Source: a virus
Reading direction: 5' to 3' (one strand)
Virus record (IMG/VR): IMGVR_UViG_3300029787_000222
Coordinates: 1-30,424 of that record
Length of the DNA stretch: 30,424 bases
Part shown: positions 7,693 to 17,198 of the stretch, one piece after another
How the letters are laid out: every line of letters begins with the position of its first letter
How positions within the stretch are numbered: position 1 is the first letter of the stretch
Notes under the pieces: generated by a model
What the model was told of the DNA's origin: nothing
Seen by the model: the letters and a program-made list of their open reading frames with translations, nothing else
The model's database searches: none
Made by a program: the position numbers and the translations under genes

Positions 7693-7917
7693 TTATATTG
7701 AAGCAAATTCTAAAGCATCTTCTAAAGATTCAAACTTTCTAATAAATTGTTTATTAGTTGTTTCATCAATTAGAAAGAAGTCTTTATTACTTAATTTATG
7801 TATCATAACATTCTCATCTAATCTATTAGTGCCTTGAATAGCTTTAAACCAAACATTATTAGCATCATGTTCTCCAACTACTGAATCTGCTAAAAATATA
7901 TCTTTTTTAAATTCCAT
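7693..7917 (-). CDS. Lone minus-strand small protein, unknown function
   Basis: A 74-residue protein starting at the ATG at 7917 (MEFKKDIFLAD), chosen because AAAGGAGA stands just before it on the minus strand. A longer reading from 7965 would start inside the promoter. The protein is acidic, mixed alpha/beta, with no helix-turn-helix, membrane segment or cysteine cluster. It has its own perfect sigma-70-type promoter and shares a leader sequence with the early operon, so it is probably expressed early. A role in controlling early genes or the host is possible from position; nothing in the sequence proves it. Confidence 0.75.
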   Translation of the reverse strand: MEFKKDIFLADSVVGEHDANNVWFKAIQGTNRLDENVMIHKLSNKDFFLIDETTNKQFIRKFESLEDALEFASI

Positions 7918-7949
7918 TGTATTCTCCTTTTGTTTAACTAACATATACA

Positions 7950-7978
7950 ATAATATGGAATACAATCACCAATGTCAA
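7950..7978 (-). promoter_or_regulatory. Sigma-70-type promoter of minus-strand gene
   Basis: Read on the minus strand: TTGACA (7978-7973), exactly 17 bases, TATTAT (7955-7950). The start would lie about 25 bases before the ATG at 7917. The leader contains GTTAGTTAAACAAAAGGAGA, nearly the same as the leader of the divergent early promoter. Confidence 0.85.
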
Positions 7979-8010
7979 CAATATTCGGAATTATTTTTTT
8001 AAGGGTGTTT

Positions 8011-8031
8011 TGTGGATAAAATTGTGGATAA
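8011..8031 (-). promoter_or_regulatory. Two DnaA boxes, 12-bp spacing
   Basis: TGTGGATAA occurs at 8011-8019 and again at 8023-8031. Each is the exact complement of the consensus box TTATCCACA. The start-to-start distance is 12 bp, so they lie on nearly the same helix face. Two exact 9-mers so close together are unlikely by chance in this sequence. Confidence 0.7.
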
Positions 8032-8035
8032 ATAG

Positions 8036-8059
8036 AGTAGGGGGTACAGTAGGGGGTAC
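8036..8059 (+). repeat. 12-bp tandem repeat (iteron-like)
   Basis: AGTAGGGGGTAC is present twice in direct tandem (8036-8047 and 8048-8059), followed by a TGTG that does not extend a third copy. The G run is notable in an AT-rich genome. The period equals the DnaA-box spacing. It may be a binding site for a phage initiator such as the DnaD-like protein. Confidence 0.8.
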
Positions 8060-8150
8060 TGTGTAAGAAAAAGAAAAAGACAAAGATTAATATAAAGCTA
8101 AAGAATAGGAAGAATTAAAAGAATTGGAAAAAGAAGGTTGAAAATAAACA

Positions 8151-8179
8151 TTGACAAGTTGAATATTAATCACTATTCT
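8151..8179 (+). promoter_or_regulatory. Early promoter
   Basis: TTGACA (8151-8156), 17-base spacer, TATTCT (8174-8179). The leader carries GTTAGTTAAACAAAGG (8186-8201) running into GGAG, with the ATG of the first early gene at 8209. This promoter probably drives the whole early module up to the terminator near 15490. Confidence 0.85.
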
Positions 8180-8208
8180 TGTAGAGTTAGTTAAACAAAG
8201 GAGAAAAA

Positions 8209-8511
8209 ATGAAACTATTTACTATGAAAGAAATATTTGAAGATATTAAAGATGCTGTCGATACAGCAGAACACTACATGGATTCAACCGAAGATCAACT
8301 TGATGGACTTGTACAAATATTTGAAAAAGTAGAAGAAATGCAAAAACATTATGATTTATATGAAGCTAAAGACATGAATTATAAAATGGAAGCAATCAAA
8401 GAAATGGCTGAATATAGAGAAATAACCGACTTTGAAGATATGTTAGATGATGATTTTGGCAACTTGACAAGTGAACAAATGTCAGAAAAAACAAATATGG
8501 AGAAACAATAA
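8209..8511 (+). CDS. First early gene, acidic helical protein, unknown
   Basis: A 100-residue protein, very acidic (many Asp and Glu) and predicted mostly helical, starting after a perfect GGAGA site behind the early promoter. The first gene of an early operon often encodes a host-takeover or regulatory protein, but no motif supports a specific job. Near its start the DNA holds a 16-base dyad, TGCTGT-CGAT-ACAGCA (8253-8268), which could be chance or a regulator site. Acidic DNA-mimic proteins are one possibility; this is a guess from charge alone. Confidence 0.7.
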   Translation: MKLFTMKEIFEDIKDAVDTAEHYMDSTEDQLDGLVQIFEKVEEMQKHYDLYEAKDMNYKMEAIKEMAEYREITDFEDMLDDDFGNLTSEQMSEKTNMEKQ

Positions 8512-8826: not shown

Positions 8827-9453
8827 ATGGCTTTTGTAAATTTAAAAGACCTAAAAGCAAATGTAGGTGGTCAGTTGAGATTGACTTTAAACTCAGCAGG
8901 TGTCTACGAAGAAAAAGAATGGCAAGGTAAGAAGTTTAATACCTTTAAATATGAAGTGATCCAAGATGGCACTATATCAAGCTTAGATGCGACAGATAGT
9001 CTTCATAGGAAGTTGATGAGTATATCAAAAGGAAATGACTTCCTATTAAGTTGGGAACAATTCACTACTGATTCAGGCGAGCTTAGAAATTATTGGAAGG
9101 TTGAACCAGTTAGTAAAGATTCTGCTAATCCAGTATTTGAGAATGTAAAGAAAAGCATCAATGAGTTTGACCAAAAACTACAAGCAGATAAAGCAGTAAA
9201 ACAAGCAGTAGAAACTACTAATACCACTTACACCAATGGTGCAAGAATGGGTATGATTTTCAACAATGTAGTTAAATTGTATATTGCCAATGATATGGTA
9301 TGGACTACTGACGAGTTTGTAAACAACTTTAAACGAGTTGAAGCTTGGGTAGAAGCTTGTGAAAATCCTAAAGCGATACCACAAGCAAGCAAACCTAATG
9401 AACCAGTTGCCGAAGAATCGGTAGAAATTAAAGCAGACGACTTACCATTCTAA
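8827..9453 (+). CDS. Single-stranded DNA-binding protein (SSB-like)
   Basis: A 208-residue protein after TAAGGAGA. The N-terminal part (residues 1-95) reads as a beta-barrel-like series of strands with aromatics (EEKEWQGKKFNTFKYEVI, WEQFT, YWKVEP), as in OB folds. The C-terminus is a disordered linker ending in KADDLPF. An acidic tip ending in Pro-Phe is the hallmark of bacterial SSB proteins and docks many host repair and replication proteins. A helical region (about 105-185) lies between the two parts, which is unlike classical SSB. It probably coats phage ssDNA and links it to host partners. Confidence 0.65.
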   Translation: MAFVNLKDLKANVGGQLRLTLNSAGVYEEKEWQGKKFNTFKYEVIQDGTISSLDATDSLHRKLMSISKGNDFLLSWEQFTTDSGELRNYWKVEPVSKDSANPVFENVKKSINEFDQKLQADKAVKQAVETTNTTYTNGARMGMIFNNVVKLYIANDMVWTTDEFVNNFKRVEAWVEACENPKAIPQASKPNEPVAEESVEIKADDLPF

Positions 9454-9551
9454 TGAGTAACGATAATACAATAATAATGCTCTTATTAGTAATTGTTTGG
9501 TTGATAGTTGCATTATTTGGAATTATGTTTGTGGGGTTAATTATAATGTAG
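9453..9551 (+). CDS. 32-residue membrane peptide
   Basis: The ATG overlaps the stop of the SSB-like gene (TAATG), so it is translationally coupled. After a short polar start (MSNDN) residues 6-32 are almost entirely hydrophobic (LLLVIVWLIVALFGIMFVG within), giving one long membrane segment with no tail. The coupling and hydrophobicity argue for a real product. Function is unknown; inner-membrane peptides of this size in phages can alter host physiology or block superinfection, but nothing here shows which. Confidence 0.55.
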   Translation: MSNDNTIIMLLLVIVWLIVALFGIMFVGLIIM

Positions 9552-9556
9552 AAACT

Positions 9557-9632
9557 GGGGCAGCTACTTCTTATTCCTTTGTTTAATTAACATGATCAAA
9601 TCGAATAGTAGCTGTCCCTTTCTCCTGAAAGG
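9557..9632 (+). ncRNA. Structured leader of methyltransferase gene (candidate riboregulator)
   Basis: Two adjacent hairpins lie just before the ATG at 9638. Stem A pairs 9557-9568 with 9607-9618 (11 Watson-Crick pairs and one G.U) and exposes a 38-base loop. Stem B pairs CCTTTC (9617-9622) with GAAAGG (9627-9632), closing a four-base loop and covering the ribosome binding site AAAGGA. Loop A contains CCTTTGTTTAATTAAC (9576-9591), complementary to the early-operon leader at 8186-8201 (15 pairs plus one G.U). Its TCCTTT (9575-9580) can also pair with the methyltransferase's own AAAGGA. Structure is read by eye; regulation is inferred. Confidence 0.5.
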
Positions 9633-9637
9633 ATATT

Positions 9638-10384
9638 ATGATAAATAAAATACATAATGAAAATTGTTTAGATACTATGGCTAAAATGCCAGACAATTTT
9701 ATTGATGCAACTATAACTTCTCCACCATACGACAATTTAAGAGATTATAATGGATATGATTTTAATTTTAATAAAATAGCAAAACAATTATATAGAGTAA
9801 CAAAAGATGATGGAATTTTAGTCTGGATAGTTGGAGATGCTACAATTCAAGGAAGTGAAACTGGAAGTTCTTTCAAACAAGTATTGCATTTTAAAGAATT
9901 AGGATTTTCTTTGCACGATACAATGATTTATGAAAAAAACAGTTCATCTTTTCCAGCAAGAAAAGAAAGCAATAGATATACTCAAATATTTGAGTATATG
10001 TTTGTCTTTGGAAAAGGTGGTGTATCTGCAAATCTTATTTGTGATAAAAAAAATAAATGGGCAGGACATAAAGATTTTTCAGGCAAATTAAAAAATCCAG
10101 TTCCAGAATATTCTCCAAGAACAAATATATGGAAATACTCTACGAGTTTTAACGATAAAACTGGACACCCTGCTGTTTTCCCTGAACAATTAGCAGAAGA
10201 CCATATATTAACTTGGACAAATGAAAAAGATTTAGTTTATGATTGTTTTATGGGAAGTGGAACTACTGCAAAAATGTGCATTTTAAATAATCGTAATTAT
10301 ATTGGTAGTGAAATTTCTAAAGAATACTGCGATACAGCAAACGAAAGAATTTATAAGATTAATATACAGGAGAAAAATGCCTAA
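9638..10384 (+). CDS. DNA methyltransferase (beta-class order, TSPPY)
   Basis: A 248-residue SAM-dependent DNA methyltransferase. Catalytic motif IV is TSPPY (residues 27-31) near the N-terminus, and the SAM-binding motif FMGSGTT (204-210) is near the C-terminus, the order of beta-class amino-methyltransferases. TSPPY is common in N4-cytosine enzymes but also occurs in N6-adenine enzymes, so the methylated base is open. The middle (about 100-180) is the probable target recognition region. It overlaps the next gene by 8 bases. It probably protects phage DNA from host restriction or marks it. The leader may control its translation. Confidence 0.85.
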   Translation: MINKIHNENCLDTMAKMPDNFIDATITSPPYDNLRDYNGYDFNFNKIAKQLYRVTKDDGILVWIVGDATIQGSETGSSFKQVLHFKELGFSLHDTMIYEKNSSSFPARKESNRYTQIFEYMFVFGKGGVSANLICDKKNKWAGHKDFSGKLKNPVPEYSPRTNIWKYSTSFNDKTGHPAVFPEQLAEDHILTWTNEKDLVYDCFMGSGTTAKMCILNNRNYIGSEISKEYCDTANERIYKINIQEKNA

Positions 10385-12826: not shown

Positions 12827-14280
12827 AAAATAAAATATTATGTGGAGATAGCTTAGAAGTCTTAAAAGACTTTGAAAACAACTATTTTGATAGTGTAGTA
12901 ACCGATCCACCCTATGGAATTTCATTCATGTCAAAGTCGTGGGATTATGATGTTCCCCAAGTAGAATTATGGAAAGAAGTATATCGTGTCCTAAAACCAG
13001 GTGGGCATATCTTATCTTTTGCAGGTTCAAGAACATATCACAGAATGGCAGTAAACATAGAAGATGCTGGATTTGAAATAAGAGATATGTTAGGGTGGTT
13101 ATATGGTAGTGGCTTTCCTAAATCACATAATGTTGGAAAAGCAGTTGATAAATTGCAAGGAAGAAATTCACAAAAAGAAATAGAATTTGTTGAATGGCTT
13201 AAAACACATAATACATTTTCTATTTCTGAAATAGACAAAAGATTAGGAACAAAATCACAAGCATTTCATTATTTTGCTAAATCTAGTAGTAATAGACAAA
13301 TTCCAACAAACAAACATTATGAAATTATTAAAGAATTATTATTGTTAGATGATACATACGATTCTTTTATAGAAAACAAAAATAAAAGATTAGAAGAAAT
13401 AAGAGAAATACAGGGATACGATAATGGAATAAAAAATTGGAATAAATCATATAAAAAGCCAATTTTAGATAAACCTAAAACAGAAGAAGCAAAACAATGG
13501 GAAGGTTGGGGAACTGCATTAAAACCAGCACACGAACCTATTGTAATGGCAAGAAAACCATTTAAGACATCAGTAGCAGAAAATGTCTTAACACATGGCA
13601 CAGGTGGAATAAACATAGATGAGTGTAGAGTTGGAACTGATGAAAAAATTAAATTTGAAAGAAAAAAAGAATCAACAACAGCAAGTGGATGGAAAGATGT
13701 AAATAGAAATCCTTATGAACAACATAACAAAGGAAGATTCCCTGCAAACATAATCCACGATGGAAGTGAAGAAGTATTAGAGATATTTCCTGAAACAAAA
13801 CAAGCAAAAAGTAGAACTATTAGGAATTTTAAAGGTTGGAAAAATGAAGGTAATTTAAAAAAACATGAAGTATATAAAGATGATTCTAATTCTGCATCAA
13901 GATTCTTTTATTGTGCCAAAGCAAGTAAAGCAGAACGAAATATGGGGTTAGATGATTATGAGGAAAAACCTATGGGAATGTCCAATAGAGCAAAACATAG
14001 ATCAACATTAGATCATAGCCATGATATAGATTTAAATAGAGTAATAAATAGAAAAAACTACCACCCAACAGTAAAACCAATCAAACTAATGGAATATTTA
14101 GTAAGATTAGTAACACCTAAAAAAGGCATAGTATTAGAACCTTTTGCAGGATCAGGAACAACATTAATCGCTTGTAAGCAACAAGGATTCAATTATATAG
14201 GCATAGAAAGAGAACAAGAATACTGCGATATAGCAGAAGCAAGACTAAAAGGAGTTAAAATACAAGGAACATTATTTTGA
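12823..14280 (+). CDS. Site-specific DNA methyltransferase with inserted recognition domain
   Basis: Read from 12823 this gives 485 residues starting MKNKILCGDSLEVL, the normal opening of this family. Motif IV is DPPYG (28-32), and the SAM motif FAGSGTT (441-447) is near the C-terminus (beta-class order). Between them are family-typical WLYGSGFPKSHNVGKA (92-107) and WGTALKPAHEP, and an inserted stretch (about 110-190) with an HTH-like pattern (ISEIDKRLGTKSQAFHYF). Such inserts serve as target recognition domains. DPPY favours N6-adenine methylation. The longer open frame from 12679 would add 48 residues that do not look like the family. Its stop overlaps the next gene. Confidence 0.85.
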   Translation: MKNKILCGDSLEVLKDFENNYFDSVVTDPPYGISFMSKSWDYDVPQVELWKEVYRVLKPGGHILSFAGSRTYHRMAVNIEDAGFEIRDMLGWLYGSGFPKSHNVGKAVDKLQGRNSQKEIEFVEWLKTHNTFSISEIDKRLGTKSQAFHYFAKSSSNRQIPTNKHYEIIKELLLLDDTYDSFIENKNKRLEEIREIQGYDNGIKNWNKSYKKPILDKPKTEEAKQWEGWGTALKPAHEPIVMARKPFKTSVAENVLTHGTGGINIDECRVGTDEKIKFERKKESTTASGWKDVNRNPYEQHNKGRFPANIIHDGSEEVLEIFPETKQAKSRTIRNFKGWKNEGNLKKHEVYKDDSNSASRFFYCAKASKAERNMGLDDYEEKPMGMSNRAKHRSTLDHSHDIDLNRVINRKNYHPTVKPIKLMEYLVRLVTPKKGIVLEPFAGSGTTLIACKQQGFNYIGIEREQEYCDIAEARLKGVKIQGTLF

Positions 14281-14579
14281 AAAACTCAATAGACAATCAA
14301 GCAAAAGGTTACCAAGACTTAATCGACGAGGTAGAAAAAGAACAAGCAAAGATATTAAAAGAACTAAAATATGTTCTTACTGGTATACAAGGGGGAAGGT
14401 CATTATCAGATCAAGAGTATCAATGCTTCATTGAACGAGCATTAGAAAAAAAGAAATTTGACGATATAGCTTATAATATGAGAATATCAGAAAGTTCAGC
14501 AAAGACCTATTATAATCGAGCCATAAAAAAGCTATCGAAAGAAGCCACTTTGGTAAAATATAAGCTTCGTAGAAAATGA
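14277..14579 (+). CDS. Sigma-70 region 4-like HTH regulator
   Basis: A 100-residue protein read from a TTG that overlaps the methyltransferase stop (TTGA). AAGGA lies upstream at a workable distance. The C-terminal half holds LSDQEYQCFIERAL, then FDDIAYNMRISESSAKTYYNRAIKKL (in residues about 61-86), a helix-turn-helix of the sigma region 4 type shared with phage late regulators (ArpU/RinA-like). The N-terminal 35 residues are a charged helix. It lies near the end of the early operon, shortly before the late genes, which fits an activator of late transcription. A control protein for the flanking methyltransferase and nuclease-like gene is the alternative. Confidence 0.65.
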   Translation: MKNSIDNQAKGYQDLIDEVEKEQAKILKELKYVLTGIQGGRSLSDQEYQCFIERALEKKKFDDIAYNMRISESSAKTYYNRAIKKLSKEATLVKYKLRRK

Positions 14580-15232
14580 ATAAGTTAGACACAGCATATC
14601 ATCAACTAAAAGAACTATCTCATAGTACAGACTACCACCATTACTTACATAACAAGTATTACACCTACCAACAGCAACTAAAGACCATTAATAATAAACT
14701 GGATAAAGAAATGGCACATATCCAGGACAATAGAACACCTGAACAACACTTTATGGATATCTGTAGAGGTTGGTTAGTAGAAGATGTATTTACTTATCTA
14801 TTCTCATTGCCACCATATAAAGAACTAACTGCGACCTTTGATAACCATGATCAAGATAGAGTCATAAGAGTCATGAGAAGGGAAATAACTGCAGCACCTG
14901 ACTTCAAAGTAACCTATAGGAACAAAACCATAAAGATAGAGGTACAATCCTTATTTGCTAATATACCCTTTTTCCACATCAAAGAACATAAAGCCAAAAA
15001 GCTAACCCACAGAAACAGTTTCCTGATCCAATTCAATATCCCACATAGGCAGATAGTAGTCTTTGAGCCACATCAAATAGAATTAGGCACATATAGACTA
15101 ATAGAGGACTTTAGTACCGATACCATAAAGAAATATGGATATAGATACACTATTGATGAATTGCCTAAAGAAATGATAATATCAAACTTCGTCGATAAAT
15201 TGCCTAAAAAAATAATTTCCTTATTTTCTTGA
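14576..15232 (+). CDS. PD-(D/E)XK-like protein, candidate restriction endonuclease
   Basis: A 218-residue protein starting at ATGA overlap with the HTH regulator. After a helical N-terminus (1-80) comes APDFKVTY (107-114), then IKIEVQSLF (119-127), giving P108-D109, E122 and Q124, followed by FFHIKEHKAKKL (132-143). A PD-x12-E-x-Q core with a following basic helix is reminiscent of the PD-(D/E)XK fold. The E-x-Q variant is known from BglII and BstYI. Together with the methyltransferase two genes upstream it could be part of a restriction-modification cassette. Motif evidence is partial, so a non-nuclease role remains possible. Confidence 0.4.
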   Translation: MNKLDTAYHQLKELSHSTDYHHYLHNKYYTYQQQLKTINNKLDKEMAHIQDNRTPEQHFMDICRGWLVEDVFTYLFSLPPYKELTATFDNHDQDRVIRVMRREITAAPDFKVTYRNKTIKIEVQSLFANIPFFHIKEHKAKKLTHRNSFLIQFNIPHRQIVVFEPHQIELGTYRLIEDFSTDTIKKYGYRYTIDELPKEMIISNFVDKLPKKIISLFS

Positions 15233-15257
15233 CACTAATTGTAGAATACCATATTTT
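15229..15257 (+). promoter_or_regulatory. Third sigma-70-type promoter
   Basis: TTGACA (15229-15234), 17-base spacer, TATTTT (15252-15257). The -35 box overlaps the stop codon of the preceding gene. The leader reads GTAGTTAATTAAAATAAAGGAGA, a variant of the leader behind the two divergent promoters near 8000. It would drive the small gene at 15288. Confidence 0.75.
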
Positions 15258-15287
15258 AAGTAGTTAATTAAAATAAAGGAGATTAAA

Positions 15288-15652: not shown

Positions 15653-16021
15653 GTGATTAGTTTGGCTGCAGCTAAAACAACAAAGGTTGTAAAACAACCA
15701 AAAAACAACGAAAAACTTGTTGGTGGAATAACTGGCAAGGGTTGGAAAAAAGGACAATCAGGTAATCCTAATGGAAGACCTAAATCTGGTTTTGCCTTAA
15801 ATGAATATATCACCGATCTTGCTAATGTAGAATTAGAAGATAAAAAGACTATGTTAGAAGCTGTTGTAGGTAAAGTATATGAAGAAGCATTAGATGGTAA
15901 TATGAGTGCTATTAACTTCCTGGCAGATAGAATCTTGGGTAAACCAAGTCAAAGTATAGGGATCAAAGATGTTTCAGATGAACCAATTAAGGTATTTGAT
16001 ATAGATGGACTGGACGATTGA
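15653..16021 (+). CDS. terS: Terminase small subunit (DUF5681-type N-terminus)
   Basis: A 122-residue protein containing GKGWKKGQSGNPNGRPK (in the region of residues 28-44), the signature of DUF5681-type proteins found before the large terminase gene, followed by a helical part. The start is uncertain: GTG at 15653 or TTG at 15662. The GGGGTG just before the latter could serve as its ribosome site. It binds the packaging site on DNA and activates the large subunit. It overlaps the large terminase gene by 17 bases. The cluster of dyads just upstream may be its target. Confidence 0.75.
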   Translation: MISLAAAKTTKVVKQPKNNEKLVGGITGKGWKKGQSGNPNGRPKSGFALNEYITDLANVELEDKKTMLEAVVGKVYEEALDGNMSAINFLADRILGKPSQSIGIKDVSDEPIKVFDIDGLDD

Positions 16022-17198
16022 TGCCACAAGGAAATCAATCCTTAAAGACGATACACGATACAAGATCTTATCCTGTGGTAGAAGGTGGGGGAAGTCTTAC
16101 TTCTCTATTTTATTTTTATTATCTAAGCCTTTTAAAGCTAACGAAAGAAGGTGGATTGTTTTTCCAACATATAGACAAGCTAAGATGGTATCTTGGTCAA
16201 TACTCAAGGACATCTTTTCACATAAAGAAGTCAGTATCAATGAAACTGAATTATCTATTACACTTGACAATGGTGCAAAAGTTGAACTCAAAGGGGCAGA
16301 CAAGCCAGACTCACTTAGAGGAGTATCTACAACAATGGTAGTGCTTGATGAGTACAGTTATATGAAAGAGAATGTGTGGGGAGAGATTATACAGCCGACT
16401 TTAGCAGAAACTAAAGGATCGGCTTTATTTGTAGGAACTCCAACTGGAGTACAGAACCACTTTTATGATCTATTTGTTAAAGGACAATCACAGAATAGTG
16501 ATTATAAGTCCTGGCAGTTTACCACATTAGATGGTGGCTTTATTTCTGAATCAGAAGTAGAGAATGCAAAAAAGAATTTAGATAAGAGAACTTTTGAACA
16601 AGAATATCTTGCAAGTTTTCTTACTGCTGCAAATAGAGCAGCATACAATTTTAGTAGAGATATACATTGTAGAGTAATGGAGAAGTCCCCAAGAATGTTT
16701 TGGGGAATTGACTTTGGGGTAGCATCTTATATGACTGCTTTATTAATGTGTGAGAATACTGCAGGAGAATTATATGTATTTGATGAGATTGGATTACAGA
16801 ACTCTAATACCTTTGAATTGGCTAAGCTAATGCAGTTAAAAGGTAGAGGATTACCAGTATATCCTGATCCAGCAGGGAAGGCAAGAACTTCTAATAGTAC
16901 CAAGTCTGACCATAAGATATTACAAGAAGCTGGGTTTACAGTTATAGCTAAGAAAGCTAATCCAACCCAGAAGGATCGTTTGAATGCTTTGAATAAGATG
17001 TTAGAAGATGCTACTGGAAAGCATAGACTATTTATTAATCCTAAGTGTAAGAACACTATTAGAGATTTAGAACTATGTACTATGGAGAATGGGCAAATAC
17101 TAAAGACTGAAACATTATCACACTTCTTAGATGCTTTATGTTATCCAGTTGATTACCGATATGGATTTAAAGGACAAGCTAAGGCAATAGAATGGTAA
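16005..17198 (+). CDS. terL: Terminase large subunit
   Basis: A 397-residue packaging motor and nuclease. Walker A GRRWGKS is at 25-31, Walker B MVVLDE at 111-116 with catalytic E116, and the coupling motif GTPTG at 144-148. The RNase H-type nuclease domain shows D236 (GIDFG), D288 (YPDPAG) and D376 (SHFLDALCY). It pumps DNA into the prohead using ATP and cuts the concatemer. Length is at the short end of the family but all key motifs are present. It overlaps the small subunit gene and, through TAATG, the next gene. Confidence 0.95.
   Translation: MDWTIDATRKSILKDDTRYKILSCGRRWGKSYFSILFLLSKPFKANERRWIVFPTYRQAKMVSWSILKDIFSHKEVSINETELSITLDNGAKVELKGADKPDSLRGVSTTMVVLDEYSYMKENVWGEIIQPTLAETKGSALFVGTPTGVQNHFYDLFVKGQSQNSDYKSWQFTTLDGGFISESEVENAKKNLDKRTFEQEYLASFLTAANRAAYNFSRDIHCRVMEKSPRMFWGIDFGVASYMTALLMCENTAGELYVFDEIGLQNSNTFELAKLMQLKGRGLPVYPDPAGKARTSNSTKSDHKILQEAGFTVIAKKANPTQKDRLNALNKMLEDATGKHRLFINPKCKNTIRDLELCTMENGQILKTETLSHFLDALCYPVDYRYGFKGQAKAIEW

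Follow-up and report, generated by a model that had tools for sequence, protein, structure and literature searches.

What is an RNA hairpin doing in the middle of a phage operon when its loop carries the complement of the ribosome-site region of leaders lying elsewhere in the same genome? The window, by which we mean the whole stretch analysed, is a 30.4-kb virus record (30,424 nucleotides) that contains tail and head genes, a terminase (16005-17198) and an endolysin, and that is laid out with one leftward gene facing a rightward early operon. Within this operon an earlier note, made from the sequence alone, had placed two hairpins before the ATG of a methyltransferase gene and had described them as that gene's leader RNA, one of them burying the gene's own SD and the other directing its loop against ribosome sites.

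The first of the two, hairpin A (9557-9618, plus strand), lies in the rightward operon 5 nt 3' of a 32-aa ORF and has a 12-bp stem (9557-9568 with 9607-9618, one of the pairs being G.U) that closes a 38-nt loop. Its identification as an antisense hairpin draws on the fold, on covariation and on relatives; the fold of 9550-9645 reaches -26.5 kcal/mol with a z of -3.4, a value that none of 200 shuffles equalled. The loop segment CCTTTGTTTAATTAAC (9576-9591, plus strand) is the complement of a leader common to several promoters, from about +1 into the SD. Behind the stem stands a conserved pyrimidine tail, TTTCTCCT (9619-9626, plus strand), which is anti-SD-like, a second, generic anti-SD; RNAcofold pairs only this tail with SDs, a method that cannot show kissing by the loop. 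There is no conserved U-tract terminator after the stem, the tails varying between clades, and no conserved promoter of the hairpin's own was found, so that a discrete small RNA would require processing. A loop-blind promoter scan gave none at the hairpin, and no -10 lies at leader spacing beside the loop copy. An intrinsic terminator was rejected because the tail is not conserved as one, and a minus-strand promoter inside the hairpin because none lies at the right spacing.

Hairpin B (9617-9632, plus strand; CCTTTC-TCCT-GAAAGG), over the methyltransferase SD, is real in the window and yet no conserved feature. Folded alone (9617-9622 with 9627-9632) it has -7.6 kcal/mol, and in the MFE of the whole leader 4 bp of it are left and the tail is paired elsewhere. 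Among relatives it is present where the next gene supplies AAAGGA and absent where the ATG follows 3-5 nt after the tail, and many relatives have no SD whatever at its position. The pair of hairpins described before the ATG thus holds for A in full and for B as a local structure, and the burying of the SD by B as a conserved lock was rejected, since B is absent in many relatives.

Relatives were gathered through the SSB-like gene (8827-9453, plus strand), which always lies 5' of the hairpin and whose label is based solely on the acidic DDLPF tail of its product; the protein had no match in Pfam or PDB. The search gave 33 viral loci and then, with a profile, 52, and found no bacterial genome, host genome or cultured phage relative. 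A hairpin stands 3' of the gene, directly or after a small ORF, in 49 of 49 contigs, window included, with a stem of about 10-13 bp and a loop of 28-40 nt, longer where an insertion is present (in L164, L180 and L188 the script picked another local fold, the hairpin being plain in the sequence). There are 34 viral contigs with the tail pattern, all of this lineage and each with a single copy. In the hairpins of L156, L166 and L171 the loop has, towards its 5' side, a 20-nt insertion that contains a mini-hairpin (CCAACTTCATTGTTGG), and the anti-leader segment there is intact.

The gene behind the hairpin is exchangeable cargo: across 48 contigs the first gene 3' of it belongs to 10 unrelated clusters, of which the DNA methyltransferase of the window (9638-10384, plus strand) is one, and among the best 80 methyltransferase relatives the tail pattern occurs only in L002, which comes from a contig of the same lineage. 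Because the downstream gene swaps in this way, the hairpin is not a methyltransferase element and its description as a methyltransferase leader has to be given up; a SAM-type riboswitch was rejected on the same ground and for want of any Rfam match. The 32-aa ORF (9453-9551, plus strand; MSNDNTIIMLLLVIVWLIVALFGIMFVGLIIM), which encodes one membrane span, fills the interval between the SSB-like gene, whose stop codon it overlaps, and the hairpin. It is optional, being kept in most relatives and absent from L102-L104, L111, L175 and L182, where the hairpin is retained. In L091, L093, L096, L098, L099 and L107 a short ORF that has an SD of its own (AAAGGAAAAAATGGGGCA...) lies just 3' of the SSB-like gene and contains the hairpin; its TGA and the ATG of the next gene, which lacks an SD, overlap as ATGA, and translational coupling through the hairpin is possible there. 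A short ORF through the hairpin (MGQLLLILFCLIN...) is open in many class B contigs, its terminal ATGA overlapping the next start, and was rejected as the cause of conservation because it is broken in L092 and L105 and has no counterpart in class A.

Scanned for promoters over its whole length and blind to the loop, the window gave three, and no more, that have an SD and a start codon; their leaders were identified without use of the loop. Two of these promoters are divergent (7917-8209), both sigma-70-like with 17-bp spacing and both running directly into the same leader: the rightward early promoter with its leader (8151-8208, plus strand; GTTAGTTAAACAAAGGAG at 8186-8203, target site 8186-8201) and the leftward one (7918-7978, minus strand; ATGTTAGTTAAACAAAAGGAG at 7944-7924, target site 7942-7924). 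The third (15229-15287, plus strand) lies 5' of the terminase genes and has the common leader too (GTTAATTAAAATAAAGGAG at 15263), as a weaker predicted target. The loop 16-mer matches the plus strand at 8186-8201 with 15 pairs and a single G.U; it is also complementary to the minus strand at 7942-7927, with one extra A as a bulge, just as the earlier note had read them; a pattern search with up to three mismatches gave these two sites only, where 0.6 would be expected by chance. When all 40-nt windows on both strands of the 30 kb were scanned for duplexes, the two leaders were the two best non-self sites (-22.4 and -22.0 kcal/mol), and, averaged over the two best duplexes at gene starts of the window, the loop was equalled by none of 300 dinucleotide-shuffled versions. 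The claim of an early target is right for the leader at 8186 and too narrow as a whole, the pre-terminase promoter at 15229 having the same leader.

On the strength of these sequence relations we think it reasonably probable that the element is a phage antisense RNA hairpin, made in the early operon, that would occlude the 5' end and the SD of mRNAs bearing the common leader. The rival that survives best has the loop act in cis only: it would reach back about 1.4 kb to the 5' end of its own long mRNA, tie leader and hairpin together and control the translation or decay of that operon. In its favour, one putative transcript of the window includes both the 8186 leader and the hairpin, as is the case in most relatives. 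The match to the divergent minus-strand leader, however, is equally strong in the window, and nearly all well-covered contigs have an opposite-strand leader, which cannot be on the hairpin's transcript, so that action there must be in trans. Action in cis alone is therefore unlikely, and a trans-acting antisense RNA, one of the two modes that the earlier note had offered, is the best reading.

An antisense RNA is also what the comparison between lineages points to. The leader differs in divergent lineages (GTTGAA.., GTAAGTTA.., GGTTAAAC.., GTTAAGTTAA..), and the loop has changed along with it. The loop complement of the main lineage, ATGTTAATTAAACAAA followed by AGG or AGAG, is the consensus of that lineage's leaders. 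For G007 (L183), with leaders ATGTTGAATAAAAAAAAGGAGAAC, ATGTTGAACAATAATGGAGAAC and ATGTTGAAACAAAAAGGAGAAC and the loop complement ATGTTGAATAGTGGAGAAC, the stretch common to both is GTTGAATA..GGAGAAC; for G009 and G011 (L186, L189), with leader ATAGTAAGTTAAGTTAAAAAGGAGATTA and loop complement ATAGTAAGTTAAGCTGTGGAGATTA, it is ATAGTAAGTTAAG..GGAGATTA; and for G003 (L177), with leaders GGTTAAACAAAAGGAGA and GGTTAAACAGAAAAAGGAG and loop complement GGTTAAACGTAGGAGAG, it is GGTTAAAC..AGGAG. G001 (L174) shares TAGTTAACAAA between its leader TAGTTAACAAAACAAAGGAA and its loop complement TAGTTAACAAAGGAA, and G013 (L191) shares GTTAAGTTAA..GAGAT between CGTTAAGTTAATTAAAATAAGTTAGGAGATTAAA and TGTTAAGTTAAGAGATATAAA, respectively. 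The match falls into two segments, one at the 5' end of the leader and one at the SD, separated by a gap of variable length; this suits an antisense RNA lying over +1 to SD and is unlike a DNA operator.

In most contigs, unbiased duplex scans ranked the promoter leaders first or close to first among all sites. In a matched-versus-swapped duplex test, which used all gene starts and was blind to the loop, the own loop did better than swapped ones in seven of eight families, and three of 40,320 permutations were as good; the own loop was not favoured in family I (G004, G008). The loop had helped in part to recognise the leader consensus of G007 and G009-G014, whereas the permutation test used loop-blind gene starts. 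Shuffle tests on single contigs were not significant for G001, G003, G004, G007 and G008. Loop-blind 8-mer enrichment at gene starts is weak per contig because each has only two to four leaders, and the enriched 8-mers lie within the loop complement at about ten times the frequency of average words. A test of the wobble direction of leader changes was abandoned, since the search pattern had biased it. In the main lineage the leaders differ among themselves (GTTTTTTAAAC, GTTAATGAC, GTTAGTTAGAT) and the loop hardly changes, so that the coupling is to the leader consensus and not base by base to every leader. Most of the well-covered contigs have two to four leaders, and the 46 genes directly behind leaders fall into 33 clusters, mostly small and hypervariable. 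Since loop and leader changed together between lineages, we regard the hairpin as a probable RNA switch by which the phage turns down its own genes.

Such tracking also bears on the reading of the hairpin as an intercistronic device for stability, partial termination or processing, in which binding to leaders would be secondary and would alter read-through into the cargo genes. This would fit the position of a strong stem after a fixed gene and before cargo genes that have no promoter of their own, as well as the U-rich tails of some clades (L174, L183), but the tail has no conserved U-tract and the loop of such a device would have no need to track leaders; we regard it as quite improbable.

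The stem sequences are diverse, from GGGGCAGCTACT through GGGAAGGGATAT, GGGCTGTG, GCCGCAGGAC and GCTGCGGGGAA, and 222 of 228 stem cells in 19 distinct hairpins are paired, with 27 G.U and not one A.C. Since the reverse strand would make each G.U an A.C, it is the plus-strand RNA that is the conserved structure. When all 17 hairpins were aligned with MAFFT, the divergent stems came out misaligned, and pairs were for this reason counted by position and on a 12-sequence alignment, in which every cell pairs and both sides have changed in five of the 12 pairs (matched by none of 500 shuffles). Covariation of the stem, and of the loop with the leader, was what the earlier note had proposed to look for in relatives, and both are found. 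This leaves little room for a DNA site at the promoter +1, bound by a phage repressor or activator, of which the hairpin would hold an extra copy. The common GTTARTTAAAC is indeed partly palindromic, stands at the start of all three window promoters and changes between clades; yet the covariation is that of an RNA, the loop copy contains an anti-SD at a variable distance from its 5' part, L102-104 retain both ends with the middle changed, and no promoter accompanies the loop copy, all of which makes a DNA site very improbable. That hairpin and leader are conserved DNA edges for gene-cassette swaps is hardly credible as the main function, although it would suit the ten gene families behind the hairpin and the spread of leader-driven genes over so many clusters, given that leader and loop are oppositely oriented and the RNA-type stem covariation is left unexplained; a role as recombination boundary may be a side effect.

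The antisense hairpin that we favour would build on a conserved plus-strand RNA whose loop is complementary to leaders on both strands and co-varies with them at the level of clades. It would be transcribed as part of the rightward early operon, behind the SSB-like gene and ahead of the exchangeable cargo genes, and its stem would present the loop as the complement of the common 5' leader. As the early transcript builds up, the loop would pair with the leaders that bear this address, namely those of the operon's own first gene, of the divergent minus-strand gene and, probably, of the pre-terminase promoter. Because the loop extends over the leader from about +1 and takes in the SD, its pairing should keep ribosomes from loading: the duplex would prevent 30S binding and may be exposed to RNase III. 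As the hairpin is transcribed 1.4 kb after the leader of its operon (8186), the outcome would be delayed negative feedback, in which leader-bearing first genes would give a short pulse of expression and then be shut down. We infer that loop and leader pair in the cell, and with this timing; the position of the duplex suggests repression and not activation or stabilisation, and the acting molecule would be a processed fragment and not the whole mRNA.

The leader looks like a constant address before exchangeable genes, and the hairpin like its matching silencer. We tentatively conjecture a leader-addressed RNA regulon: one constant 5' leader would stand on promoters whatever gene they drive, one antisense hairpin would silence every such mRNA, new genes would be controlled at once, and address and anti-address would co-evolve and differ by lineage. 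With an address specific to each lineage, the hairpin could in addition serve to exclude sibling phages specifically. If true, this would provide a general timing of genes without a protein repressor, in phages without recognised lysogeny genes, and would explain immediate control over freshly swapped accessory genes.

The phage antisense RNAs c4, CI, sar and OOP mostly control the lysogeny switch and have one or two target genes, and sar and OOP are transcribed opposite their targets. In its working the hairpin is closest to c4 of P1/P7 and to the CI RNA of P4. The loops of c4 (RF01695; Citron and Schuster 1990) are described as covering the ribosome site (PMC12197685, PMC8198154); like the element here, c4 is a phage antisense RNA in the same operon as a target, with complementary loops aimed at the ribosome-binding-site region, and complementarity of the loop to the target ribosome-site region is found here as well. 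The element differs in being one simple hairpin downstream of the target leader, with several target promoters on both strands. Rfam at the gathering threshold gave no match in the window or nine relatives, and c4 at a relaxed threshold none in the window region; no lysogeny genes were recognised among the window proteins scanned, and the c4-like order upstream of an icd/ant-type target is not seen. With no Rfam match, a different gene order and no lysogeny genes seen, the hairpin does not belong to c4.

The CI immunity RNA of P4, with seqA and seqC as targets, is described as a processed RNA that brings about transcription termination in the lysogen (PMC4825925). It too is an antisense RNA embedded in the phage's own transcript that pairs with more than one site, and the hairpin's loop is likewise antisense to more than one leader in most well-covered contigs; the difference is that several separate promoters here share one leader that includes the SD. 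The sar RNA of P22 and the OOP RNA of lambda are described as antisense RNAs that reduce the expression of a phage mRNA (PMC12197685), whereas the loop here recognises a repeated leader elsewhere in the genome. The PeSLs (promoter early stem-loops) of T4-type phages (Arbiol 2010, Comeau 2014) are described as a promoter and stem-loop bordering swapped genes (PMC4503421), and share with the hairpin the border position and the conserved promoter or stem-loop elements at swapped genes; the hairpin, however, has no early promoter joined to it, and its loop is antisense to a leader. RegA and RegB of T4 likewise represent a phage-encoded shut-off of many early mRNAs at ribosome sites, but are described as proteins (PMC3014915), where the agent here would be an RNA. 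Unlike c4 and CI, the hairpin is addressed to a shared leader before hypervariable genes, and we count it as a variant of phage antisense regulation; a literature search, with most subscription papers outside its coverage, turned up no earlier description.

Some further observations concern the surroundings of the leaders. Just 5' of the third leader-bearing promoter and the terminase, the gene at 14277-14579 encodes a 100-aa protein that matches sigma-factor/regulator PHROGs (phrog_36, phrog_1190) and is a candidate late-gene activator. Between the divergent promoters two copies of the DnaA-box-like TTGTGGATAA (8010-8031 and 8033-8056) lie beside GGGGGTA direct repeats, a possible replication origin. 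In two relatives (G009:29836, plus strand; G011:12536, minus strand) the leader of a 257-aa gene holds a partly doubled address (GTAAGTTATAGTAAGTTAAGTTA), and it forms the strongest predicted non-self duplex there, with -28.1 kcal/mol in G009 and -26.3 kcal/mol in G011.
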